Shown here in pieces: positions 11,070-22,917 of a DNA stretch of 64,000 nucleotides (position 1 is its first letter; every line of letters starts with the position of its first letter). Source of the DNA: Rhizobium sp. Pop5. Lineage in GTDB: Bacteria > Pseudomonadota > Alphaproteobacteria > Rhizobiales > Rhizobiaceae. The notes under the pieces are model-generated. The model was given only the letters and a program-made list of their open reading frames with translations, made no database searches and was not told the origin of the DNA. The position numbers and the translations under genes were made by a program. The DNA is taken from assembly GCF_024721175.1 (NCBI RefSeq), contig NZ_CP099401.1, positions 1-64,000 of the forward strand, given 5' to 3'.

Positions 11070-11136
11070 GATTTCCGAATTCGACTGCCGCGGCGATGTT
11101 CGTACGCATTAAGCTGGTCCAACAATGAGGTGCAGA

Positions 11137-11832
11137 ATGAGCGGTGCTCTGAAGGAGGCAACAATCAGGGTCGAGCGTCCTGCGAAGACATTGCGGGAAT
11201 TGGCGCTCGACAAAGTCCGCGAAGCCATTGTGAATGGATATTTCCGTCCCGGCGACCGCCTTGTCGAACGCGATCTCTGCGCCCAGCTCGGCGTCAGCCG
11301 GACCGTCGTGCGCGAAGTTCTAAGGCACCTGGAATCGGAAGGCCTCGTTGCCAATCTGCCGAACAAAGGGCCGATCGTCGCCCAGCTCGATATCGAGGAA
11401 GCCAAACAGATTTATGAGATCCGCGGCGCGCTTGAAGGCATGGCCGCCCGGCTGTGCGCGGAACGCGGCAGCCCCGAGATTGTCGATGCGCTGGAAGAAT
11501 CCCTCACCGGAATCCGTAACAGCTACCGCGACAATGATATGGCGGCTGTGCTCGCGAATACGTCTTCCTTCTATCAGACCCTGTTCACGATGGTCGACAG
11601 GCACGTCGCCTGGGGTGTCGTCAACCTTCTCACCGTGCGCATAAACCACTTGCGCTCGATGACGATCAAGACGGAGCGGCGCGGCATCGAAGGGCCGGCG
11701 CAGATGTCGAAGATCGTCGATGCCATCCGTCGCGGCGACGGCGAGGGCGCCTACCGGGCGGCGATGGACCATGTCGCCGCCGCCTGCGCAATCGCCGAAG
11801 CGGTGTTGTCGGCCAAGAAATCCGCCGAGTAA
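11137..11832 (+). CDS. GntR-family regulator with FCD ligand domain
   Basis: 231 aa repressor-type regulator. N-terminal winged HTH (LRELALDKVREAIVNGYFRPGDRLVERDLCAQLGVSRTVVREVLRHLESEGLV), then the all-helical FCD domain with metal/ligand His positions (TMVDRHVAWG, INHLRSM, AMDHVAAA). I chose ATG 11137 because TGAGGTG at 11126-11132 is a good ribosome-binding site; ATG 11125 is an alternative. Three copies of its likely operator flank it (11054, 11965 and 12264), so it probably controls itself and the catabolic cassette starting at 12305. Confidence 0.9.
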   Translation: MSGALKEATIRVERPAKTLRELALDKVREAIVNGYFRPGDRLVERDLCAQLGVSRTVVREVLRHLESEGLVANLPNKGPIVAQLDIEEAKQIYEIRGALEGMAARLCAERGSPEIVDALEESLTGIRNSYRDNDMAAVLANTSSFYQTLFTMVDRHVAWGVVNLLTVRINHLRSMTIKTERRGIEGPAQMSKIVDAIRRGDGEGAYRAAMDHVAAACAIAEAVLSAKKSAE

Positions 11833-11964
11833 GGCCAGACAGCCGCCGCAGCTTCCATTGGAGGCCGGGCGAAGCATTCGTGCCATCGATCACTTATCAT
11901 CATGCCAATCACGAATCCGGAGAGTCGGTACTCCCGGCTTGACACGCAAGTTTGCGCGATGTGA

Positions 11965-11979
11965 TGGTATGCCATAATA
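11965..11979 (+). promoter_or_regulatory. GntR-type operator, orphan copy
   Basis: TGGTATGCCATAATA, 13 of 15 bases common to all three copies in the window. TTGACA lies 20 bp upstream at 11939-11944. No gene follows for 325 bp, so it may serve repressor looping or an unrecognised transcript. Confidence 0.55.
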
Positions 11980-12246: not shown

Positions 12247-12278
12247 TTGACACTACGATACTATGGTATACCATAATA
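12247..12278 (+). promoter_or_regulatory. Promoter and GntR operator of the oxygenase cassette
   Basis: TTGACA (12247-12252) and CATAAT (12272-12277) with 19-bp spacing. The operator TGGTATACCATAATA (12264-12278) overlaps the -10; its core ATGGTATACCAT (12263-12274) is a perfect 12-bp palindrome. Repressor binding here would block transcription of the gene at 12305. Confidence 0.6.
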
Positions 12279-12304: not shown

Positions 12305-12907
12305 ATGGCCATTCAAATTCGCAAGACGGGACTGCAGATCGAAACGACGCTGATCGAGGGCGGCAAAGCTGCGGCCGTGCCGCTGAAACTGTTTTCGGCC
12401 TTCGCCGTCGTGAACAACCCCTGGGCGGGGCGGGGCTTCGTCGAAGACCTCAAGCCGGAAATCCATGAGGCAGCCCCCGTGCTCGGCGAATTGCTGACCA
12501 AGATGATCATCGACGCGGTCGGCTCCGGCGAGGCTGTCGAAGGCTACGGAAAGGCCGCCGTCGTCGGTCTGAACGGCGAGATCGAACACGCATCCGCGCT
12601 GATCCACACGCTGCGCTTCGGCAATTTTTATCGCCAGGCCGTCGGCGCAAAGTCCTATCTCGCCTTCTGCAATACGCGCGGGCCCGCCAACGCGCCCATC
12701 ATGATCCCGCTGATGGACAAGAACGACGAAGGCCGCCGCTCGCACTACCTGACCATCCAGACGTCGATCCCCGACGCGCCGGCTGCCGATGAGATCGTCG
12801 TGGCTCTCGGTGCTTCGGTGGGTGGGCGTCCTCATCATCGCATCGGCGACCGCTATCAGGATCTCAAAGATCTGGGGCAGGATGTTGCCAATCCGGCGGG
12901 CGTTTGA
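12305..12907 (+). CDS. DUF1185 ("amino acid synthesis" family) protein
   Basis: 200 aa protein of the PF06684 family: MAIQIRKTGLQIETTLIEGG, then VVNNPWAGRGFVEDL, GYGKAAVVGLNGEIEHASALIHTLRFGNFYRQAVGAKSYL and HYLTIQTSIPDAPAADEIVVALGASVGGRPHHRIGDRYQDL. These conserved blocks span the whole length, so the gene looks intact. Known structures of the family are trimeric with a chorismate-mutase-like fold; no reaction is established to my knowledge. First gene of the GntR-controlled cassette. An enzymatic role in hydrolysing or rearranging a ring intermediate is my inference from its neighbours. Confidence 0.85.
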   Translation: MAIQIRKTGLQIETTLIEGGKAAAVPLKLFSAFAVVNNPWAGRGFVEDLKPEIHEAAPVLGELLTKMIIDAVGSGEAVEGYGKAAVVGLNGEIEHASALIHTLRFGNFYRQAVGAKSYLAFCNTRGPANAPIMIPLMDKNDEGRRSHYLTIQTSIPDAPAADEIVVALGASVGGRPHHRIGDRYQDLKDLGQDVANPAGV

Positions 12908-12923
12908 AGGGGTGGGCTCTGAC

Positions 12924-13766
12924 ATGCAGGCAGCCGGATCGATCTCAGGCGCCGCTGCAGCGAAGGACGCCGGTGCCCTGTCTCGTGAGAGGACGGCAGG
13001 CGGGACGGCCTATCACGAGGCCGGGAGCGGCGAGCCGCTGGTCCTGATCCATGGCGTCGGCATGCGGCTCGAAGCGTGGGCTCCGCAGATCGCATCGCTG
13101 TCCGGCGGATATCGCGTTATCGCCGTCGACATGCCGGGGCACGGCGAGAGCGCAAAGCTGCCGGTCGGCAGTCGCCTCGAGGAGTTCGTCGCCTGGTTCG
13201 GAGGCTTTCTCGACGAGATGGAGATCAATTCAGTGAATGTCGCCGGGCATTCCATGGGTGCGCTGGTATCCGGAGGGGCGGCCGCGACGTTCGGTCGACG
13301 CATCAAGCGTGTCGCTTACCTCAATGGGGTCTATCGCCGTGACCCGGAAGCAAAGGCCGCCGTACTCGCGCGCGCCGCGGCCATTCCGGTGACGGGCGTG
13401 GATAAGGAAGGTCCGCTGGCGCGCTGGTTCGGCGATGATCCGGAGAGCAATGCTGCTCGTGAGCTGACGCGGAAATGGCTCAACCTCGTCGACCCCCAGG
13501 GCTATGCTGTCGCCTACGCGGCCTTCGCCGGCGGAGACGAGACCTATGCCGATGGCTGGAAAGACGTCCGTGGTCCGGCGCTGTTCTTGACGGGGTCCGA
13601 CGATCCGAATTCGACGCCCTTGATGGCGGAGCAAATGGCAGCGCTTGCGCCGAAGGGCTGGGTCCGCATCGTGCAGGGTCATCGTCATATGGTGAACCTG
13701 ACCGCGCCTGAAATCGTCAATTCGCTGCTCGCTGAGTGGCTGTCGTCCGGGGAGGATGAGCGATGA
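12924..13766 (+). CDS. Alpha/beta hydrolase
   Basis: 280 aa hydrolase with oxyanion motif LIHGVGM (41-47), nucleophile Ser110 in GHSMG, acid Asp226 or Asp227 in TGSDDP and base His255 in GHRHMVNL. The N-terminal ~25 residues are low-complexity, so a slightly later start is possible. I chose ATG 12924, 16 bp after the DUF1185 gene, with a purine-rich GAAGGGG upstream. The cap region is short, as in RutD-like or ester/C-C hydrolases. The stop overlaps the next start by four bases, placing it firmly in the cassette. Confidence 0.85.
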   Translation: MQAAGSISGAAAAKDAGALSRERTAGGTAYHEAGSGEPLVLIHGVGMRLEAWAPQIASLSGGYRVIAVDMPGHGESAKLPVGSRLEEFVAWFGGFLDEMEINSVNVAGHSMGALVSGGAAATFGRRIKRVAYLNGVYRRDPEAKAAVLARAAAIPVTGVDKEGPLARWFGDDPESNAARELTRKWLNLVDPQGYAVAYAAFAGGDETYADGWKDVRGPALFLTGSDDPNSTPLMAEQMAALAPKGWVRIVQGHRHMVNLTAPEIVNSLLAEWLSSGEDER

Positions 13767-14698
13767 CAATCCAGACTGTCGATCCAAGGGCATTGCGCGA
13801 CGCATTCGGCGCTTTTCCCACAGGCGTAACCGTCGTCACCGCTTGCGACGGGGAGGGGAACCCGATCGGGTTCACGGCGAATTCCTTCACTTCCGTCTCC
13901 CTCAACCCGCCGCTGCTCCTCGTTTGTCTCGCCAAGACCTCGCGCAATTTCGCGACCATGACCGGAGCGCGGCATTTCGCGATCAACGTGCTGTCGGAAA
14001 CGCAGAAGGACGTCTCGAACACCTTCGCGCGTCCTGTCGAAGACCGGTTTGCGGCAGTCGAATGGGCCAAGGGATCATCGGGCTGCCCAGTCTTCTCGAG
14101 CGTTGCGGCATGGTTCGAATGCGCCATGGAGCAGGTCATCGAGGCCGGTGACCACGTCATCCTGATGGGACGCATCGAATCCTTCGACAATAGCGGCCGC
14201 AACGGTCTCGGTTATGCCCGTGGCGGCTACTTCACGCCGACGCTGGCAAGCAAGGCGGTTTCCGCCGCAGCCGAAGGCAATATCGAACTTGCGGCCGTCG
14301 TCGAACGCCGCGGAGAAGTTCTGCTCCTCGGCGAGGACGTGCTTTCTCTCCCATGCATTGACGCCCATGACGGCAACCCGACCGAGACGCTGGAAAAATA
14401 CCTGGAGACGCTCACCGGGCTGAAGGTCAGCATTGGCTTTCTCTACTCGGTTTACGAAGGCAAGAGCGACGGCAAGCAGCACATCGTCTACCACGCCGTC
14501 GCCGGCGATGGGGAGCCCGCCAGCGGCCGGTTCCTGAAGCCCGACGCCTTATCGGGCGCGCAATTCAAGACCAGTTCGACCGCAGACATCGTCAACCGTT
14601 TCGCGATGGAAAGCTCGATCGGTAATTTCGGCGTCTATTTCGGTGACGAGACCGGCGGCAAAGTTCATCCCATTCCAGCCAAGGGCGCAAAAGCATGA
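13763..14698 (+). CDS. Flavin reductase with C-terminal Nudix-like domain
   Basis: 311 aa. Residues 1-165 are a flavin-reductase-like domain (FGAFPTGVTVVTACDGEGNPIGFTANSFTSVSLNPPLLLVCLAKTS, then GHVI-type region around DHVILMGRIESF), expected to supply reduced FMN/FAD to the luciferase-like enzyme encoded next. Residues about 175-300 look like a degenerate Nudix domain (GNPTETLEKYLETLTGLKVSIGFLYSVYE) lacking the REUXEE acidic box, so it is probably a ligand-sensing or structural module rather than a hydrolase. Such fusions are much longer than single-domain HpaC/RutF reductases. Coupled by overlaps to both neighbours. Confidence 0.87.
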   Translation: MTIQTVDPRALRDAFGAFPTGVTVVTACDGEGNPIGFTANSFTSVSLNPPLLLVCLAKTSRNFATMTGARHFAINVLSETQKDVSNTFARPVEDRFAAVEWAKGSSGCPVFSSVAAWFECAMEQVIEAGDHVILMGRIESFDNSGRNGLGYARGGYFTPTLASKAVSAAAEGNIELAAVVERRGEVLLLGEDVLSLPCIDAHDGNPTETLEKYLETLTGLKVSIGFLYSVYEGKSDGKQHIVYHAVAGDGEPASGRFLKPDALSGAQFKTSSTADIVNRFAMESSIGNFGVYFGDETGGKVHPIPAKGAKA

Positions 14699-15735
14699 AG
14701 TTCTCCCTCTTCGTCCATATGGAACGGCTCGACGCCAGCCAGAGCCATAAGAGCCTCTACGAGGAATTCGTCGCGCTCTGCGAGATCGCCGACAAGGGCG
14801 GCATGCATGCGATCTGGACGGGTGAGCACCATGGTATGGATTTCACCATCGCACCCAACCCGTTCGTCACCATCGCCGATCTGGCGCGCCGCACATCGCG
14901 GGCGAGGCTCGGCACGGGAACGGTGATTGCTCCCTTCTGGCATCCGATCAAGCTTGCCGGCGAAGCGGCTATGACCGACATCATCTGCGACGGAAGGCTC
15001 GACATCGGGATCGCACGCGGCGCCTATTCCTTCGAATATGAACGCCTGCTCCCGGGACTTGATGCCTGGGGCGCCGGCCAGCGCATGCGCGAGCTCATCC
15101 CGGCGGTCAAGGGCATATGGAAGGGCGACTACGCCCATGACGGCGAGTTCTTCAAGTTCCCCGCGACGACCTCGGCGCCGAAGCCGTTGCAGCAGCCGAA
15201 CCCGCCGATCTGGGTTGCGGCGCGCGATCCGAACTCGCACGAATTCGCCGTCGCCAACGGCTGCAACGTCCAGGTCACGCCGCTCTGGCAGGGTGATGAC
15301 GAGGTTCAGTCGCTGATGGACCGCTTCAAGGATGCCTGCGCCAAGAATCCCGATATCGCGCGGCCGAAGATCATGCTGCTGCGCCACACCTATGTCGGCT
15401 CGTCGGAAGAGGACGTCGCCCGGGCCGCCCATGAGCTCAGCGTTTACTACAACTACTTCTTCGCCTGGTTCAAGAATGAGAAGCCGGTCAACCAGGGCCT
15501 GATCGAGCGGATTCCGGACGAACAGATTAGAGCGAACGCCATGCTGTCGGATCAGGTCATGCGCACCAACAATGTCGTTGGCGACGCCGAGACCGTTATC
15601 GCGAGGCTGAAGGCCTATGAAGCGCTCGGCTATGACGAATATTCCTTCTGGATCGACACCGGCATGAGTTTCGAGCGCAAGAAGGCGTCGCTCGAACGCT
15701 TCATCGCCGAGGTCATGCCGGCTTTTCAGGAGTGA
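14695..15735 (+). CDS. LLM-class flavin-dependent monooxygenase
   Basis: 346 aa bacterial-luciferase-like TIM-barrel oxygenase. N-terminus MKFSLFVHMERLDASQSHKS, TGEHHGMDFTIAPNPFVTIADLA, LGTGTVIAPFWHPIKLAGEAAMTDIICDGRLDIGIARG and IWVAARDPNSHEFAVANGCNV are the standard family blocks. It would use the reduced flavin made by the preceding gene product (ATGA overlap between the genes). It is not RutA or SsuD by its sequence as I read it; the substrate is unknown. The neighbouring hydrolase and aldehyde dehydrogenase suggest oxygenative C-N or C-C cleavage giving an aldehyde. Confidence 0.88.
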   Translation: MKFSLFVHMERLDASQSHKSLYEEFVALCEIADKGGMHAIWTGEHHGMDFTIAPNPFVTIADLARRTSRARLGTGTVIAPFWHPIKLAGEAAMTDIICDGRLDIGIARGAYSFEYERLLPGLDAWGAGQRMRELIPAVKGIWKGDYAHDGEFFKFPATTSAPKPLQQPNPPIWVAARDPNSHEFAVANGCNVQVTPLWQGDDEVQSLMDRFKDACAKNPDIARPKIMLLRHTYVGSSEEDVARAAHELSVYYNYFFAWFKNEKPVNQGLIERIPDEQIRANAMLSDQVMRTNNVVGDAETVIARLKAYEALGYDEYSFWIDTGMSFERKKASLERFIAEVMPAFQE

Positions 15736-15739
15736 GACC

Positions 15740-17203
15740 ATGCGGCGTTTCCAGCATTACATCGACGGCGAATTCTCCGATGGCGAGGCCCGTTATCCCA
15801 GTATCGATCCGGCTACCGGCGCGGTCTGGGCTGATATGCCGGAAGCGCGCGAGGGCGATGTCGACCGGGCGGTGAACGCCGCCGAAAAGGCGCTTTACGA
15901 CGGTCCCTGGGCGAAGATGACGGCCACGCAACGCGGCAAGCTGCTCTATAAGCTCGCCGATCTCGTTGCCGCCAATGCGCAGGTCCTCGCCGAGTTGGAG
16001 ACGCGCGACACCGGCAAGATCATCCGCGAAACATCCGCGCAGATCGCCTATGTCGCTGAATATTATCGCTATTATGCCGGAATATCAGACAAGATCGAAG
16101 GCTCCTACCTGCCGATCGACAAGCCTGACATGGATGTCTGGCTTCGCCGCGAGCCGATCGGCGTCGTCGCCATGGTCGTGCCGTGGAACAGCCAGCTCTT
16201 TTTGTCTGCGGTGAAGATCGGCCCGGCGCTGGCCGCCGGCTGCACCATGGTGGTCAAGGCTTCGGAAGACGGGCCGGCGCCGCTTCTCGAATTTGCGCGT
16301 CTCGTGCATGAGGCAGGCTTTCCCGCCGGCGTCGTCAATATCATCACTGGTTTCGGCGCCTCCTGCGGCGCCGCGCTCGGCCGTCATCCGAAGGTGGCCC
16401 ACGTCGCCTTCACCGGCGGTCCCGAGACCGCGCGGCATATCGTTCGCAACTCGGCCGAAAACCTCGCCTCCACCTCGCTCGAACTTGGCGGCAAGTCGCC
16501 CTTCATCGTCTTTGCCGATGCCGATCTCGAAAGCGCCGCCAATGCCCAGGTCGCCGGCATCTTCGCCGCAACGGGACAGAGCTGCGTTGCCGGATCGCGC
16601 CTGATCGTCGAACGCAGCGTCAAGGACAGGTTCGTCGCTCTGCTGCGGGAGAAGGCTGAGGCGATCCGGATCGGCGCACCGCTCGACATGGCGACCGAAG
16701 TCGGCCCGCTGGCCACCAAGCGCCAGCAGGACAATATCGGCGCCCTCGTCGAAAGGTCGATCGAAAGCGGCGCCCGCCTCGTCACCGGCGGCAGCAAGAT
16801 CGACGGCGAAGGCTTTTACTTCCCGCCGACAATCCTCGACTGCGACGATGTCGCCTCGCCCTCGCTGGTCGAGGAATTCTTCGGGCCGGTCCTGTCGGTC
16901 GTCTCGTTCGAGACCGAGGCCGAGGCGCTGCGACTTGCCAACGATACCCGTTATGGCCTCGCCTCCGGCCTCTTCACCCAGAACCTGACCCGGGCGCACC
17001 GGCTAATGAAGGGCATCCGCGCCGGCATCGTCTGGGTCAATACCTACCGCGCCGTCTCGCCGATCGCGCCGTTTGGCGGGTTCGGCCTGTCCGGTCACGG
17101 CAGGGAAGGCGGCATGGCCGCGGCGCTCGATTACACCCGCACCAAGACGATCTGGCTCCGGACGTCGGACGATCCGATCCCCGATCCTTTCGTGATGAGG
17201 TAG
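15740..17203 (+). CDS. NAD(P)-dependent aldehyde dehydrogenase
   Basis: 487 aa ALDH-superfamily enzyme. Catalytic Glu248 in LELGGKSP and Cys282 in GQSCVAGSR; cofactor-site Asn150 in VVPWNSQL (Ser replaces the usual Phe after Asn) and the VAFTGGPETAR loop (222-232). Begins four bases after the monooxygenase stop. Expected to oxidise the aldehyde released by the cassette to the acid. Closest overall to betaine-/hydroxymuconic-semialdehyde-type ALDHs, but substrate assignment is not possible from the sequence. Confidence 0.9.
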   Translation: MRRFQHYIDGEFSDGEARYPSIDPATGAVWADMPEAREGDVDRAVNAAEKALYDGPWAKMTATQRGKLLYKLADLVAANAQVLAELETRDTGKIIRETSAQIAYVAEYYRYYAGISDKIEGSYLPIDKPDMDVWLRREPIGVVAMVVPWNSQLFLSAVKIGPALAAGCTMVVKASEDGPAPLLEFARLVHEAGFPAGVVNIITGFGASCGAALGRHPKVAHVAFTGGPETARHIVRNSAENLASTSLELGGKSPFIVFADADLESAANAQVAGIFAATGQSCVAGSRLIVERSVKDRFVALLREKAEAIRIGAPLDMATEVGPLATKRQQDNIGALVERSIESGARLVTGGSKIDGEGFYFPPTILDCDDVASPSLVEEFFGPVLSVVSFETEAEALRLANDTRYGLASGLFTQNLTRAHRLMKGIRAGIVWVNTYRAVSPIAPFGGFGLSGHGREGGMAAALDYTRTKTIWLRTSDDPIPDPFVMR

Positions 17204-17207
17204 CGCC

Positions 17208-17531
17208 ATGTTCTACGAAATCCGCACCTATCGGCTGAAGAACGGCACGATCCCGCAATATCTCAAGGTCGTCGAGGAAGAAGGGATCGAGATCCAGAAG
17301 AGCCATCTCGGCACGCTTGTCGGCTACTTCTTCTCGGAGATCGGGACGATCAACGAAATCGTCCACATCTGGGCCTTTGCGAGCCTGGACGACCGGGAGG
17401 CGAGACGCCGGAGGCTTCTGGCCGACCCCCGGTGGCAGGCCTTCCTGCCCAGGATCCGCGACCTGATCGAGGTGGCGGAAAACAAGATTATGAAGCCAGC
17501 AAGCTTTTCTCCCGGGAGCGAGGCGCACTGA
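17208..17531 (+). CDS. NIPSNAP-family protein
   Basis: 107 aa, MFYEIRTYRLKNGTIPQYLKVVEEEGIEIQKSHLGTLVGYFFSEIGTINEIVHIWAFASLDDREARRRRLLADPRWQAFLP. This is the dimeric ferredoxin-like NIPSNAP domain, often found beside oxygenases in bacteria and likely acting as a small accessory enzyme or binding protein. It starts four bases after the ALDH stop and ends the tightly packed part of the cassette; the ABC importer starts 48 bp later. Confidence 0.85.
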   Translation: MFYEIRTYRLKNGTIPQYLKVVEEEGIEIQKSHLGTLVGYFFSEIGTINEIVHIWAFASLDDREARRRRLLADPRWQAFLPRIRDLIEVAENKIMKPASFSPGSEAH

Positions 17532-17579: not shown

Positions 17580-18590
17580 ATGAAAACAACATTTGCATTC
17601 GCGGCGGTTGTCGCAGTCGTGGCAGTCTCCGCGCCGGCCAAGGCCGAAAATATGGTCTTCTCAAGCTGGGGCGGGACCACCCAGGATGCACAGAAGGCTG
17701 CTTGGGCAAGCCCGTTCACCGAAAAGACCGGCATCACCGTGGTGCAGGACGGGCCGACGGATTACGGCAAGCTCAAGGCCATGGTCGAGGCCGGCCAGGT
17801 CGCCTGGGATGTCGTAGACGTCGAAGGCGACTATGCCGCCCAGGCCGGCAAGAGCGGCCAGCTCGAAAAGCTCGACTTCTCCGTCATCGACAAATCCAAG
17901 CTCGATCCGCGTTTCGTCACCGACTATTCGGTCGGCAGCTTCTATTATTCCTTTGTCATCGGCTGCAATGCCGATGCCGTCAAAGCCTGCCCGAAGACAT
18001 GGGCCGACCTGTTCGACACGACGAAATTCCCGGGCAAGCGCACATTCTACAAGTGGTCGGCTCCCGGCGTGATCGAAGCGGCGCTGCTTGCCGACGGCGT
18101 GCCGGCCGACAAGCTCTATCCGCTCGATCTCGATCGCGCCTTCAAGAAGCTCGATACGATCAAATCCGACATCATCTGGTGGTCGGGCGGTGCCCAGTCG
18201 CAGCAGCTGCTGGCATCGGCCGAAGCGCCCTTCGGCAGTGTCTGGAACGGTCGCATGACGGCGCTTGCCGCGACCGGCATCAAGGTTGAAACCTCCTGGG
18301 AACAGAACATCACTGCTGCCGATGCGCTCGTCGTGCCGAAGGGCTCGCCGAATGTCGAAGCCGCGATGAAGTTCATTGCGTTGGCGACTTCGGCCGAGCC
18401 GCAGGCTGCCCTTGCAAAAGCCACCGGCTATGCGCCGATCAATATCGACTCGGCCAAGCTGATGGACCCGGAGACGGCCAAGACCCTGCCGGACCAGCAG
18501 ACGGCAAGCCAGGTGAATGCCGACATGAACTATTGGGCACAGAACCGCGATGCCATCGGCGAGAAGTGGTACGCTTGGCAGGCGAAATAA
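17580..18590 (+). CDS. Polyamine-type ABC periplasmic binding protein
   Basis: 336 aa PotD/PotF-like binding protein. Signal peptide MKTTFAFAAVVAVVAVSAPAKA (cleavage after about residue 22). The mature start ENMVFSSWGGTTQDAQKAAWASPFTEKTGITVVQDGPTDYGKLKAMVEAGQVAWDVVDVEGDYA is the family pattern; the later KRTFYKWSAPGVIEAALLADGV is also typical. It follows the oxygenase cassette in the same direction and presumably captures that pathway's substrate, an amine or other cation. A perfect 11-bp hairpin follows the gene. Confidence 0.9.
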   Translation: MKTTFAFAAVVAVVAVSAPAKAENMVFSSWGGTTQDAQKAAWASPFTEKTGITVVQDGPTDYGKLKAMVEAGQVAWDVVDVEGDYAAQAGKSGQLEKLDFSVIDKSKLDPRFVTDYSVGSFYYSFVIGCNADAVKACPKTWADLFDTTKFPGKRTFYKWSAPGVIEAALLADGVPADKLYPLDLDRAFKKLDTIKSDIIWWSGGAQSQQLLASAEAPFGSVWNGRMTALAATGIKVETSWEQNITAADALVVPKGSPNVEAAMKFIALATSAEPQAALAKATGYAPINIDSAKLMDPETAKTLPDQQTASQVNADMNYWAQNRDAIGEKWYAWQAK

Positions 18591-18701: not shown

Positions 18702-19574
18702 ATGTCGACGTATAGCGATGCCTCCGGCATAATTGCGCCTTTGCCAAAGGCGCGCAGGAAAACAGGTTTTGGCGCGGTCGTTCCGGCTTTCGCCTTCGTC
18801 GGCATCTTCTTCATCGTGCCGGTGGCGATACTCCTGTTGCGAAGCGTGCTGGAACCCGTGCCGGGCCTCGGCAATTATGCGCAGCTGATCGGGTCTTCGA
18901 CCTATCTGAAGATTTTCGCCAACACCTTCATCGTCTCGGGCCTCGTCACGGTGATTTCCCTGCTGATCGGTTTTCCCGTTGCCTGGGCGCTCGCGATCAT
19001 GCCCGGACGGCTGACCTCGGTGATCTTTGCGATCCTGCTCCTGTCGATGTGGACCAACCTGCTGGCTCGCACCTATGCCTGGATGGTGCTGCTGCAACGG
19101 ACGGGGCTCATCAACAAGATGCTGATCGGAATGGGCCTGATCGACAAACCGCTCGCGCTCGTCAACAACCTGACCGGGGTGACGATCGGCATGACCTATA
19201 TCATGCTGCCTTTCATCATCCTGCCGCTCTACGGCGTGATCAAGAAGATCGATCCCTCGATCCTGCAGGCGGCAGCCCTTTGCGGCGCCAACCGGTGGCA
19301 GTGTCTGACGCGTGTTCTCCTGCCGCTGGCAACACCCGGCATGGCGGCCGGCGCGCTGATGGTCTTCGTCATGTCGCTCGGCTATTTCGTCACGCCGTCG
19401 CTTCTCGGCGGTACGGCCAACATGATGCTCGCAGAGCTGATCGCGCAGTTCGTGCAGTCGCTGGTCAATTGGGGAATGGGAGGTGCTGCGGCGCTGGTTC
19501 TCCTGGTGGTGACCCTCTCGCTTTATGCCGTGCAGCTGCGCTTCTTCGGCAACCAGAACCCGGGAGGACGTTGA
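18702..19574 (+). CDS. Polyamine-type ABC transporter permease (PotB/PotH-like)
   Basis: 290 aa membrane protein with about six spans, starting near VVPAFAFVGIFFIVPVAILLL. The EAA coupling loop is in ILQAAALCGANRWQCLTRVLLPLATPGMAAGALMVF. ATG 18702 is preceded by GGAAGGA; an in-frame GTG at 18687 would add five residues. It pairs with the next permease; the two genes are separated by one base. Confidence 0.88.
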   Translation: MSTYSDASGIIAPLPKARRKTGFGAVVPAFAFVGIFFIVPVAILLLRSVLEPVPGLGNYAQLIGSSTYLKIFANTFIVSGLVTVISLLIGFPVAWALAIMPGRLTSVIFAILLLSMWTNLLARTYAWMVLLQRTGLINKMLIGMGLIDKPLALVNNLTGVTIGMTYIMLPFIILPLYGVIKKIDPSILQAAALCGANRWQCLTRVLLPLATPGMAAGALMVFVMSLGYFVTPSLLGGTANMMLAELIAQFVQSLVNWGMGGAAALVLLVVTLSLYAVQLRFFGNQNPGGR

Positions 19575-19575
19575 C

Positions 19576-20376
19576 ATGTTGCTCAATTTCGACCGTCTCG
19601 GCTGGTGGAAATACATCCTTCTGGCGATCACGCTTCTGACCGCAGCCTTCCTGCTGCTGCCGATCCTCTTTATCGCGGCGCTGTCCTTCGGCTCATCGCA
19701 ATGGCTGATCTTTCCGCCGCCGGGCTGGACGTTTCAATGGTATGGCGAGCTCTTCGCCGATCCGCGCTGGCTGGAATCGGCTTTGACGAGCTTCAAGATC
19801 GCGGTGATCGTGACGGTTCTGTCGGTGCTGCTCGGGCTCGTGACGTCATTCGGGCTGGTGCGCGGTTCGTTCATGTTCCGCGATGCGCTGAAAGCGCTGT
19901 TCCTCACCCCGATGATCCTTCCCGTCGTGGTTCTTGCGGTCGCCCTCTATGCCTTCTTCCTCAGGATCGGCCTTGGCGGAACGCTGACGGGCTTTGTCAT
20001 TTCGCACCTGGTGCTGGCGTTGCCCTTCTCGATCCTGTCCATATCGAGCGCGCTGGAGGGCTTCGACAAGTCGATCGAGGATGCGGCGGTGCTCTGCGGC
20101 GCCTCACCCCTGGAAGCAAAGATCAGGGTCACGCTTCCCGCGATCAGCCATGGGCTGTTTTCGGCCGCCATCTTCTCTTTCCTGACATCCTGGGACGAGG
20201 TGGTGGTGGCGATCTTCATGTCCAGCCCGACCCTGCAGACGCTGCCGGTGAAAGTATGGGCGACGCTCCGGCAAGACCTGACGCCCGTCGTCGCTGCGGC
20301 GTCGACCCTTCTCATCCTTTTGACGATCATCCTGATGGCCCTGGTTGCCGTCGTGCGTAAGGTACTGAAACAATGA
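19576..20376 (+). CDS. Polyamine-type ABC transporter permease (PotC/PotI-like)
   Basis: 266 aa second permease. First span ILLAITLLTAAFLLLPILFIAALSF, then FPPPGWTFQWYGELFADPRWLESALTSF, a hallmark of PotC/PotI, and the coupling loop SIEDAAVLCGASPLEAKIRVTLPAIS. I chose ATG 19576 (MLLNFDRLGWW) with GGGAGG upstream; an earlier in-frame start overlaps the previous gene. Ends with a four-base overlap with the ATPase gene. Confidence 0.88.
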   Translation: MLLNFDRLGWWKYILLAITLLTAAFLLLPILFIAALSFGSSQWLIFPPPGWTFQWYGELFADPRWLESALTSFKIAVIVTVLSVLLGLVTSFGLVRGSFMFRDALKALFLTPMILPVVVLAVALYAFFLRIGLGGTLTGFVISHLVLALPFSILSISSALEGFDKSIEDAAVLCGASPLEAKIRVTLPAISHGLFSAAIFSFLTSWDEVVVAIFMSSPTLQTLPVKVWATLRQDLTPVVAAASTLLILLTIILMALVAVVRKVLKQ

Positions 20377-21452
20377 ACGAACCATTCCTTCAGATCCGCG
20401 GCATACGCAAGGAATACGGCCCCGTCGTCGCCGTGCACGATGTCACGCTCGACGTTCGGCGCGGGGAGTTCCTGACCTTTCTCGGACCATCGGGATCCGG
20501 CAAGAGCACGACGCTCTACATCCTGGCCGGGTTTGACAATCCGACGAAAGGCGACATTACGCTGGAGGGCAAGACCCTGCTCGCCACACCGTCGCACAAG
20601 CGCAACATCGGCATGGTGTTCCAGCGCTACACCCTGTTTCCGCATCTGACGGTGGGTGAAAACATCGCCTTTCCGCTGAAGGTGAGGCGCAAGTCCAAGG
20701 CTGAGATCGACGACAAGGTGAAGGAGATGCTGCGCCTCGTCCGGCTCGAAGGCTTCGAGGATCGCAAGCCGGCGCAGATGTCCGGCGGCCAGCAGCAGCG
20801 TGTCGCACTCGCCAGAGCCCTTGCCTATGATCCGCCAGTGCTTCTGATGGACGAGCCGCTGTCGGCGCTCGACAAGAAGCTGCGCGAGGAAATCCAGCAT
20901 GAGATCCGCCGCATCCACCAGCAGACCGAGGTGACGATCCTCTACGTCACGCATGATCAGGAAGAGGCCCTGCGGCTCTCCGACCGCATCGCCGTCTTTT
21001 CCAAGGGTGTCATCGACCAGATCGGGACCGGCCCGGAACTCTACGCCAATCCCAAGACCCGCTTCGTCGCCGAATTCATCGGCGACAGCGACTTCATTTC
21101 CTGCGACCTGCTGTCTTCTGCCGATGGGCAGGCCACCATTTCGTTTGGTGGCGGCACTGTCTTCAACCATATTCCGGTCCATGGAAAAGGAATATCGGGC
21201 AAGCGGGTAGCCCTGATGCTGAGGCCGGAGCGCATTCGGCTGTCGCGCGCCCAGGCGGCGGGAGCGGGCCTTGCCGCCACGGTCAGCGACATCACCTTCC
21301 TCGGCAACAACATCCATGTCTCGACTGAAACGGCGAATGGCGAGGCGCTGGCGGTTCGCCTGCCGTTCGGTCATGAGGCGATCACCGGCCTCAGCCGTGG
21401 CGACAGGGTGCATCTCGAGTTCGATCCCGGTGCCGCTCACGTGTTCTGCTGA
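20373..21452 (+). CDS. Polyamine-type ABC transporter ATP-binding protein (PotA-like)
   Basis: 359 aa ATPase: Walker A GPSGSGKSTT, Q-loop VFQRYTLFPHLTV, signature MSGGQQQRVALARAL, Walker B VLLMDEPLSALD, H-loop VTHDQEEA. A C-terminal TOBE-type regulatory domain follows (MLRPERIRLSRAQAAGAGLAATVSDITFLGNNIHVSTE). Fourth gene of the importer; the semialdehyde dehydrogenase gene starts 10 bp later and is likely cotranscribed. Confidence 0.92.
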   Translation: MNEPFLQIRGIRKEYGPVVAVHDVTLDVRRGEFLTFLGPSGSGKSTTLYILAGFDNPTKGDITLEGKTLLATPSHKRNIGMVFQRYTLFPHLTVGENIAFPLKVRRKSKAEIDDKVKEMLRLVRLEGFEDRKPAQMSGGQQQRVALARALAYDPPVLLMDEPLSALDKKLREEIQHEIRRIHQQTEVTILYVTHDQEEALRLSDRIAVFSKGVIDQIGTGPELYANPKTRFVAEFIGDSDFISCDLLSSADGQATISFGGGTVFNHIPVHGKGISGKRVALMLRPERIRLSRAQAAGAGLAATVSDITFLGNNIHVSTETANGEALAVRLPFGHEAITGLSRGDRVHLEFDPGAAHVFC

Positions 21453-21462
21453 GAGTTGCCTT

Positions 21463-22917
21463 ATGAAGCTCGTTGATCCCTCACTGTTCCGTCAGGCATG
21501 CCCGGTTGCCGATCGCTGGATCGAAGCGGAAGGCCGGCAAGTGACGGTGATCCGCAACCCGGCGACGGGCGAGGCGCTGGGCGCGGTCCCTGATCTCGGC
21601 GCCGCAGAGACGGAGGATGCCGTCAAGGCTGCCGTTGTTGCCCAGAAGCTCTGGGCGAGGAAGACAGCCGGGGAACGGGCGTCCATTCTCAAGGCGTGGC
21701 ATCGCCTGATGATCGAAAACCGCGACGATCTGGCGATGATCCTGACGCTGGAACAGGGAAAACCGCTCGCTGAAGCCAAGGGAGAAATCACTTATGGCGC
21801 AAGCTTCATCGAATGGTTTGCCGAAGAGGCAAGACGCATCAACGGCGAGACCATACCGGGACATCAGCCGGACAAGCGCATCCTCGTCCTGCGTCAGCCC
21901 GCAGGCGTGGTGGCTGCCATCACGCCCTGGAACTTTCCGAATGCGATGATCACGCGCAAGGTCGGTCCGGCACTTGCCGCCGGCTGTGCCGTGGTTCTCA
22001 AACCGGCGCCGCAGACGCCGTTTTCGGCTATCGCGCTTGCCGTTCTCGCCGAGCGAGCCGGCCTGCCGGCTGGCGTGCTCAACATCGTCACCGGTGACGC
22101 GGCGGCAATTGGTGGCGTCCTGACCGCAAGCCGCGACATCAGGGTCCTGACATTCACCGGCTCCACCCGGACGGGCGAACTGCTTTACCGGCAATGCGCG
22201 CCGACGATCAAAAAGCTCGGCCTTGAACTTGGCGGCAACGCACCTTTCATCGTGTTCGACGACGCCGATCTCGACGCTGCCGTCGAAGGCGCTTTGATCG
22301 CCAAGTTCCGCAACAACGGCCAGACCTGCGTCTGCGCCAATCGGCTTTATGTCCAGGACAGTGTCTACGAGGCCTTTGCCGCCAAGCTCGCCGAGGCCGT
22401 TTCGGCGCTGAAGGTCGGCAACGGCCTGGAGCGTGATGTTGTGCTTGGCCCGCTCATCGACGAAAACGCCGTCGCCAAGATCGAAGCCCATATCGGCGAT
22501 GCCGTTACAAAGGGCGCGAGCATCGTTTCGGGAGGCAAACGTCACGCACTCGGCGGCCTGTTCTTCGAACCGACCATTCTGCGCGATGTTTCTGCCGGAA
22601 TGCAGGTCGGCCGCGAGGAAACCTTCGGGCCTCTCGCGCCGCTCTTTCGTTTCCGTGACGAGCAGGATGTGATCGAGCAGGCAAACGACACCGAATTCGG
22701 GCTCGCCTCCTATTTTTACGCGCGTGATCTCTCGCGGGTCTTTCGTGTGGCGGAAGCGCTCGAATACGGGATGGTCGGCGTCAACACCGGTCTCGTCTCC
22801 ACGGCGGAAGCTCCGTTCGGCGGCGTGAAGATGTCGGGTCTCGGCCGCGAAGGATCGAGGCACGGGTTGGACGAATATACCGAACTCAAATATGTATGCC
22901 TCGGCGGCATCGCCTGA
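21463..22917 (+). CDS. Succinate-semialdehyde-type aldehyde dehydrogenase (GabD-like)
   Basis: 484 aa, the usual GabD length. Starts MKLVDPSLFRQACPVADRWI, like GabD. Catalytic Glu255 in LELGGNAPFIVFDDADLD and Cys289 in GQTCVCANR, a two-Cys arrangement typical of SSADH; ITPWNFPNAMITRK holds the catalytic Asn157. It probably oxidises succinate semialdehyde or a homologous omega-semialdehyde to feed the TCA cycle. Placed after the amine-type importer, which suggests the transported compound is degraded through a short semialdehyde. Confidence 0.88.
   Translation: MKLVDPSLFRQACPVADRWIEAEGRQVTVIRNPATGEALGAVPDLGAAETEDAVKAAVVAQKLWARKTAGERASILKAWHRLMIENRDDLAMILTLEQGKPLAEAKGEITYGASFIEWFAEEARRINGETIPGHQPDKRILVLRQPAGVVAAITPWNFPNAMITRKVGPALAAGCAVVLKPAPQTPFSAIALAVLAERAGLPAGVLNIVTGDAAAIGGVLTASRDIRVLTFTGSTRTGELLYRQCAPTIKKLGLELGGNAPFIVFDDADLDAAVEGALIAKFRNNGQTCVCANRLYVQDSVYEAFAAKLAEAVSALKVGNGLERDVVLGPLIDENAVAKIEAHIGDAVTKGASIVSGGKRHALGGLFFEPTILRDVSAGMQVGREETFGPLAPLFRFRDEQDVIEQANDTEFGLASYFYARDLSRVFRVAEALEYGMVGVNTGLVSTAEAPFGGVKMSGLGREGSRHGLDEYTELKYVCLGGIA

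Follow-up and report, generated by a model that had tools for sequence, protein, structure and literature searches.

The analysed window comprised the first 64 kb of contig NZ_CP099401.1 (503.5 kb) of Rhizobium sp. Pop5, whose whole genome was 6.74 Mb in size. We followed up a compact gene cluster in this window for which a role in the catabolism of trigonelline (N-methylnicotinate) is proposed below. Six plus-strand open reading frames (ORFs) at 12305-17531 encoded a DUF1185 protein, an alpha/beta hydrolase, a flavin reductase, a luciferase-like monooxygenase (LLM), an aldehyde dehydrogenase (ALDH) and a NIPSNAP protein. Each of them scored well above the Pfam cut-off, so that the families assigned in a preliminary description of this DNA were all correct. 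The spacings between the six genes were 16, -4, -4, 4 and 4 bp, and the statement that the genes overlapped or were no more than 5 bp apart at four of the five junctions was also accurate. The polyamine-type importer and the GabD-like gene that had been placed downstream were present as well; the latter was a succinate-semialdehyde dehydrogenase (SSADH) gene scoring 702.4 bits in a profile search with TIGR01780 (cut-off 646.35). The gene of a GntR-family regulator upstream of the cluster and the operator sites next to it lay outside the earlier account. In an annotated relative, p42c of R. etli CFN 42, the entire unit from GntR to SSADH was present together with a PhnD-like gene (Table 1).

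Table 1. Genes and promoter-like sites of the proposed trigonelline operon, in window coordinates.
Feature	Position	Strand	Basis and remarks
GntR-family regulator	11125..11832	+	start codon uncertain; 45% identity to the divergent GntR of Acinetobacter L082; named GntR in the R. etli record
Second promoter-like site	11939..11976	+	TTGACA box and operator copy GATGGTATGCCATA at 11963-11976, 2 mismatches
Operon promoter-like site	12247..12275	+	TTGACA box at 12247 and perfect operator TATGGTATACCATA at 12262-12275
DUF1185 / AA_synth protein (PF06684)	12305..12907	+	most conserved protein of the cluster
Alpha/beta hydrolase, TgnD-like candidate	12924..13766	+	Pfam; L082 match; presumed Ser-Asp-His invariant
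Flavin reductase, TgnA-like (PF01613)	13763..14698	+	Pfam; L082 match
LLM flavin oxygenase, putative TgnB-type ring-opening enzyme (PF00296)	14695..15735	+	Pfam; L082 match; tree
Aldehyde dehydrogenase, TgnC-like (PF00171)	15740..17203	+	Pfam; 70.5% identity to the Acinetobacter gene
NIPSNAP protein, accessory (PF07978)	17208..17531	+	Pfam; best solved relative 2AP6, 'hypothetical protein Atu4242'
Solute-binding protein (SBP), GABA-binding-protein group; proposed trigonelline (and GABA) receptor	17580..18590	+	structure-chain matches
ABC permease 1	18702..19574	+	Pfam; R. etli order
ABC permease 2	19576..20376	+	match to annotated R. etli order
ABC ATPase	20373..21452	+	match to annotated R. 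etli order
Succinate-semialdehyde dehydrogenase, TgnE-like	21463..22917	+	TIGR01780; L082 match

The related loci used for comparison were the best 80 of 582 confirmed candidates from other assemblies; their LLM identity was 78-98%, and all of them were close relatives. The DUF1185, hydrolase, flavin reductase, LLM and ALDH genes kept their order and a single strand in 79 of 79 testable loci, the 80th (L039) being a 3.4 kb contig that was left out of this count. Therefore, the five-gene arrangement is not due to chance, and the conserved co-occurrence that the preliminary description had proposed as a check held for the five core genes and, in 67 of the 80 loci, for NIPSNAP. Among the same loci, the SBP was found in 79 and GntR in 76. 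The median identity over 79 loci was 90% for DUF1185, 87% for LLM and ALDH, 71% for the hydrolase and 70% for the reductase. Thus, DUF1185 was conserved as tightly as the oxygenase. A broader and less biased sample consisted of 398 genomes spread over the phylum, 23 of which had an LLM at E values up to 1e-40. With the window's own genome excluded, DUF1185 was located inside the fetched stretch (about 18 kb; 13.5 kb for one locus, L167) in 19 of the 22 LLM genomes, and in the other three (G060, G288 and G312) it was 15 to 18 kb from the LLM gene, start to start. The 15 genomes of clade A (LLM at least 60% identical, own genome included) all had DUF1185, hydrolase and ALDH, and 11 of them had the reductase. 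A single ORF of a Mesorhizobium locus (L085) encoded a fused hydrolase and reductase.

Several other loci of the collection deserved mention in their own right. On an Acidiphilium plasmid, an annotated IS110 transposase gene split the LLM gene into two pieces (L106, 11337-13800), so that this copy of the pathway looks interrupted. Two group II intron reverse transcriptase genes were present between GntR and DUF1185 in S. meliloti RCAM1115 (L099, 3484-6884). In G060, a Cache-domain chemoreceptor gene adjoined the LLM gene (L161, 6501-8447) and could encode a receptor for the substrate.

The substrate was indicated by comparison with an Acinetobacter locus (L082), in which DUF1185, hydrolase, reductase, LLM and ALDH were ordered as in the window, with a divergent GntR and with the SSADH gene further on. 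The identities between the two loci were 74% for DUF1185, 50% for the hydrolase, 43% for the reductase, 71% for LLM (70.6%), 71% for ALDH, 45% for GntR and 58% for SSADH. When the L082 LLM was used for a search, the three best clusters (93-94%) carried the RefSeq name 'flavin-dependent trigonelline monooxygenase oxygenase component', and a name of the trigonelline monooxygenase type, given by JGI, was found on 7 of the 120 relatives of the window LLM that were listed. In a tree of 30 LLM proteins, that of the window and the trigonelline-named ones belonged to one group of 21 (support 85/62), apart from a group of six from another type of cluster, here called type B (86/83). The grouping had moderate support; three distant LLMs from the window's own genome were on very long branches in this tree, for which the tool warns of false joins. 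The hydrolase residues S110, D227 and H255, presumably the Ser-Asp-His catalytic residues, were invariant across 22 sequences. All the expected parts of the trigonelline pathway appeared to be present, namely a TgnB-type LLM, an adjoining flavin reductase, an ALDH, a serine hydrolase, an SSADH and a shared operator. Thus, the operon very probably serves the import and degradation of trigonelline by a TgnA-E-type pathway, and orthology supported the downstream SSADH and importer as parts of it. Since the cluster matched the trigonelline pathway, it had a characterised counterpart whose substrate is known, an outcome that the preliminary description had itself named as refuting its view. The pathway is of a known kind rather than undescribed, and trigonelline is indicated where the preliminary description had called the substrate unknown. 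Its observation was right and its guess at the chemistry was good: a two-component flavin oxygenase opening a cationic N-heterocycle, a route through a semialdehyde, and the importer and GabD-like enzyme as members of the pathway were all supported by orthology.

The operator motif came from the regions upstream of 87 clusters, and in each of them its best match within 400 nt was scored. At most three mismatches to it were found upstream of DUF1185 in 86 of the 87 clusters versus 17 of 1654 control stretches taken from these loci, and the lone exception (L068) was a contig end. The clusters were not independent because most of them were from related Rhizobiales; those with the operator also included Acinetobacter, Pantoea, Leisingera, Thioclava, Falsirhodobacter and Acidiphilium, and the operator of the Acinetobacter locus L082 had one mismatch. 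Shuffled versions of the window gave no match within two mismatches. In the whole genome, the operator occurred within two mismatches at three places, two of which were those of the operon. This count was no evidence by itself because a backward control pattern also gave three; the evidence is the position of the operator upstream of the operon. There was no sign of a wider regulon in the genome-wide scan. We infer that the GntR protein binds the predicted operator.

These elements can be arranged into a model of the pathway. GntR would repress transcription from the palindromes over the two promoters until this repression is lifted by trigonelline or by a product formed early in its breakdown. 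The ATP-binding cassette (ABC) importer would carry trigonelline into the cell, where the flavin reductase would feed reduced flavin to the LLM oxygenase and the latter would open the pyridinium ring, as is stated for TgnA and TgnB in the literature. The later steps described by Perchat in 2018 are said to involve a lactone, (N-methylformamido)methylene succinate, methylamine, formate and succinic semialdehyde. By orthology, ALDH would oxidise the ring-opened product to (N-methylformamido)methylene succinate, the hydrolase would split this compound into formate, methylamine, CO2 and succinic semialdehyde, and SSADH would turn the semialdehyde into succinate. DUF1185 would be the constant partner of these enzymes and NIPSNAP an accessory protein. 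Other parts of the genome encoded a GmaS-type enzyme and an N-methylglutamate-synthase-like set, through which methylamine could be assimilated. A profile search of the window's own genome found a TIGR03105 enzyme, which we take to be GmaS, at 695.9 bits (cut-off 469.6), and its gene was adjoined by MgsABC-like genes, which encoded glutamate-synthase, GXGXG and amidotransferase domains. Such a set is what the N-methylglutamate route of methylamine use would require. Both succinic semialdehyde and methylamine would therefore have outlets in this genome, which supports trigonelline as the substrate.

The cluster could also be related to the classical genetics of trigonelline use. In S. meliloti 1021, a search of pSymA found one place for a trigonelline-type cluster, at 430599-441262, about 12 kb from nifH (453568) and about 40 kb from nodA (480957). 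According to PMC4207669, the wild type of S. meliloti grew with 10 mM trigonelline as the sole carbon source and the strain without pSymA did not, a difference that served there to distinguish the two. By its title, Goldmann 1991 placed genes essential for trigonelline catabolism of R. meliloti on the symbiotic plasmid, and Boivin 1990 described trigonelline catabolism genes as induced under symbiotic conditions. It was likely, by position and phenotype, that the pSymA cluster is the classically mapped trigonelline catabolism locus of R. meliloti; no statement tying the mapped mutants to this cluster was found in the literature listings and the passages of a few papers. On pRL10 of R. johnstonii 3841, the start of the cluster was at 247 kb and the positions of nifH and nodA were 162 kb and 187 kb; in the window's genome the full-length nodA match was on another contig (C1) than the cluster (C4).

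Type B clusters were found at six plasmid loci (L087, L100-L103 and L109) and in the survey genomes G251 and G125 (L165 and L166). Their LLM was about 41% identical to that of the window, and their DUF1185 50-55%. The six plasmid loci all had reductase, ALDH, LLM, hydrolase and DUF1185, together with a carboxymuconolactone-decarboxylase-like (CMD) protein in five and NIPSNAP in two of them. In contrast to the window, the gene order was different, the regulator was another one (PucR type in L101), and the importers were of the ProXVW or amino-acid type. Genome G321 looked intermediate between the two arrangements. When the window's genome was searched with a type B LLM, its own LLM (41%) and three distant proteins (26-29%) were found and no type B copy. 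That these parts were found again in a different arrangement speaks for DUF1185 as a member of the pathway chemistry; its AlphaFold model was poor (mean pLDDT 57.5). As for homarine as the type B substrate, the literature listing showed no homarine degradation genes, and a later author correction concerned a contaminated homarine standard.

The small accessory proteins varied between clusters. NIPSNAP and CMD as mutually exclusive replacements were ruled out by the type B loci L101 and L102, which carried both. A weaker idea is that DUF1330 and NIPSNAP do not occur together: among 95 loci, DUF1330 was found in none of 72 with NIPSNAP versus 4 of 23 without it, a difference confounded by phylogeny, and 15 loci had none of NIPSNAP, CMD and DUF1330. 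At L082, L104, L107, L108 and L147-L153, a DUF1330 gene was located beside GntR and there was no NIPSNAP match. The hydrolase matched 3KXP, (N-acetylaminomethylene)succinate hydrolase, at an E value of 1.3e-11; this match gave no substrate because an enol-lactonase scored better (1.1e-18).

The importer led to a group of well-known binding proteins. The window SBP matched the chains 4EQ7/4EUO, which bear the PDB name 'substrate binding protein (Polyamine)' and which we take to be Atu4243, with 602 bits over 313 residues, and the gamma-aminobutyric acid (GABA) sensor chains 6DGV/9D57 with about 400 bits. Since the closest solved relative of the window NIPSNAP was Atu4242, the two matches fit neighbouring genes as in the window operon. 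In L040, an Agrobacterium locus that had the complete cluster, the SBP at 12888-13895 was near-identical to 4EQ7 (669 bits). The SBP of G312 at 15128-16129 of L163 differed little from the part of 6DGV that is Pf622 (658 bits); it was 6.5 kb from an LLM gene (49% to the window LLM; L163 and L168), with GntR, CMD, reductase, ALDH, hydrolase and DUF1185 genes 4 to 9 kb away. In the 398-genome sample, with at most five first-look candidates scored per genome, nine genomes of seven genera were found to have an SBP of this group, at E values up to 1e-85 and identities of 58-100%, and all nine had a TgnB-type LLM gene at a start-to-start distance of 2.5 to 8.4 kb. The nine were not independent, as four came from one family and three from the window's own family. 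The group was not found in 14 LLM-bearing genomes of the sample; among these, an NCS1-type carrier, a BCCT carrier, a ProX protein, an amino-acid SBP and a distant Pot-type set (30%) were found once each, and none of the queried carriers was found in the other nine. By interpolation between what we take to be the locus tags of nifH and nodA, SMa0799-0803 of S. meliloti would be the orthologue of the window importer. These genes were presented as potABCD2 for putrescine and listed among the transport genes essential for symbiosis in a TnSeq study (PMC7268258). We propose that the SBP group of the published GABA receptors may consist of trigonelline carriers.

Several observations, on the importer as well as on the enzymes, weighed against the trigonelline assignment. 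Residues R225 and D248 of the window SBP precursor corresponded to 203 and 226 in 4EQ7 chain numbering and were conserved in 91 of the 92 SBPs that were aligned, the remaining one having no coverage at these positions; Arg203 and Asp226 are presumably the GABA contacts described by Planamente in 2012, so that both would be retained in the window. An Atu4243 mutant was reportedly affected in GABA transport. In PMC12999171, Atu4243 and Pf622 (in 6DGV and 9D57) were called GABA-binding proteins and the word trigonelline was absent. Together with the 602-bit match, these published relatives suggested that the importer, and hence the main inflow, could be for GABA, the oxygenase genes being a separate module that merely shares the SSADH. 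However, neither the operon nor its annotated counterpart in R. etli showed a GABA aminotransferase, and the SBPs of this group in the 398 genomes were, in nine of nine cases, within 9 kb of a TgnB-type LLM gene. We consider this explanation unlikely, though serious. A possible but tentative view, to which we give somewhat less than an even chance, combines two proposals. The first is that PotABCD2 of S. meliloti and the binding-protein group known as selective bacterial GABA receptors, with Atu4243 of Agrobacterium and Pf622 of the iGABASnFR neuroscience sensors, are natural trigonelline importers, GABA being a flexible molecule that imitates the rigid pyridinium acid. The second is that the type B clusters use the same parts for a further ring-opening pathway, so far undescribed, whose substrate is a different pyridinium-like betaine.

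On the side of the enzymes, the reductase was not found in the fetched stretch of 4 of the 15 clade-A survey clusters, and the other named relatives among the 120 LLM proteins had generic names (LLM oxidoreductase, monooxygenase, SsuD-like). The TgnB assignment was made through L082 and its RefSeq-named relatives, and TgnB of Acinetobacter baylyi, given as UniProt Q6F9F6 in PMC11354265, was outside this comparison. Our literature search found no single-gene mutant or enzyme assay for the rhizobial copy. Because the reductase and the hydrolase had diverged from L082 (43% and 50%), a related pyridinium acid is a conceivable substrate. Another N-heterocycle near trigonelline, such as another N-alkylpyridinium carboxylate, could be degraded by the same chemistry, as the accessory genes and carriers differed between clusters (Pot-type ABC, NCS1-type, BCCT) and the sister clade with about 41% LLM identity was built from the same parts. 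It was improbable, however, because the window LLM was 70.6% identical to a protein closely related to the oxygenases named for trigonelline, because the operator was shared and because growth on trigonelline depended on pSymA. The preliminary description had instead compared the cluster with Rut. The enzyme classes were indeed alike, and the hydrolase and the reductase matched the RutD and RutF models, but their scores of 52.2 and 96.2 bits were far below the respective cut-offs of 238.5 and 254.75, on which Rut membership was rejected. Moreover, RutA was not among the 25 best of 27 families for the LLM, and the Pfam scan of the operon revealed no RutB- or RutC-type (YjgF/RidA) protein; DUF1185, which had been likened to YjgF, matched PF06684 alone and not the YjgF/RutC family. 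A Rut-like opening of a pyrimidine or lactam ring thus seemed very improbable.

Within our limited searches, three results appeared to be new: the operator, the case made from sequence for the trigonelline locus of pSym, and the finding that the GABA-receptor group is linked to clusters of the trigonelline type. The analysis supplied a concrete set of genes for trigonelline catabolism, which a title of 1991 had put on the symbiotic plasmid of R. meliloti. It also casts doubt on two current functional names: Atu4243 and Pf622 are called 'GABA receptor', and PotABCD2 is called 'putrescine transporter'. If trigonelline were the native ligand, Pf622-based sensors would need to be checked with it, and phenotypes attributed to the uptake of GABA or putrescine might reflect trigonelline uptake. 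Moreover, DUF1185, a domain of unknown function for which structures have been solved, becomes testable within a defined pathway. Elsewhere in the window, genes at 25048-48999 had rhamnosidase, arabinofuranosidase, fucosidase and sugar-importer names by similarity to Rhizobium beringeri plasmids, and this part is perhaps a plant-polysaccharide region.

The closest known system was the TgnA-E trigonelline degradation cluster of Acinetobacter, which we take to be the one described in Perchat 2018. As seen in the Acinetobacter record L082, it shared with the window the LLM, reductase, ALDH, hydrolase, SSADH, GntR, DUF1185 and the operator. On the other hand, the rhizobial copy had a Pot-type ABC importer where L082 had an NCS1-type permease, and NIPSNAP where L082 had DUF1330 and CMD proteins. 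The likeness to the Rut pyrimidine pathway was at the level of enzyme classes only. The pSym trigonelline locus of R. meliloti was comparable in its pSymA position near nifH and nodA and in the growth on trigonelline that needs pSymA; the difference was that the window's genome had nodA on another contig than the cluster. Finally, the window SBP was in the same group as Pf622 and what we take to be Atu4243, whose published ligand is GABA, whereas the genome context of this group was that of trigonelline-type catabolism.

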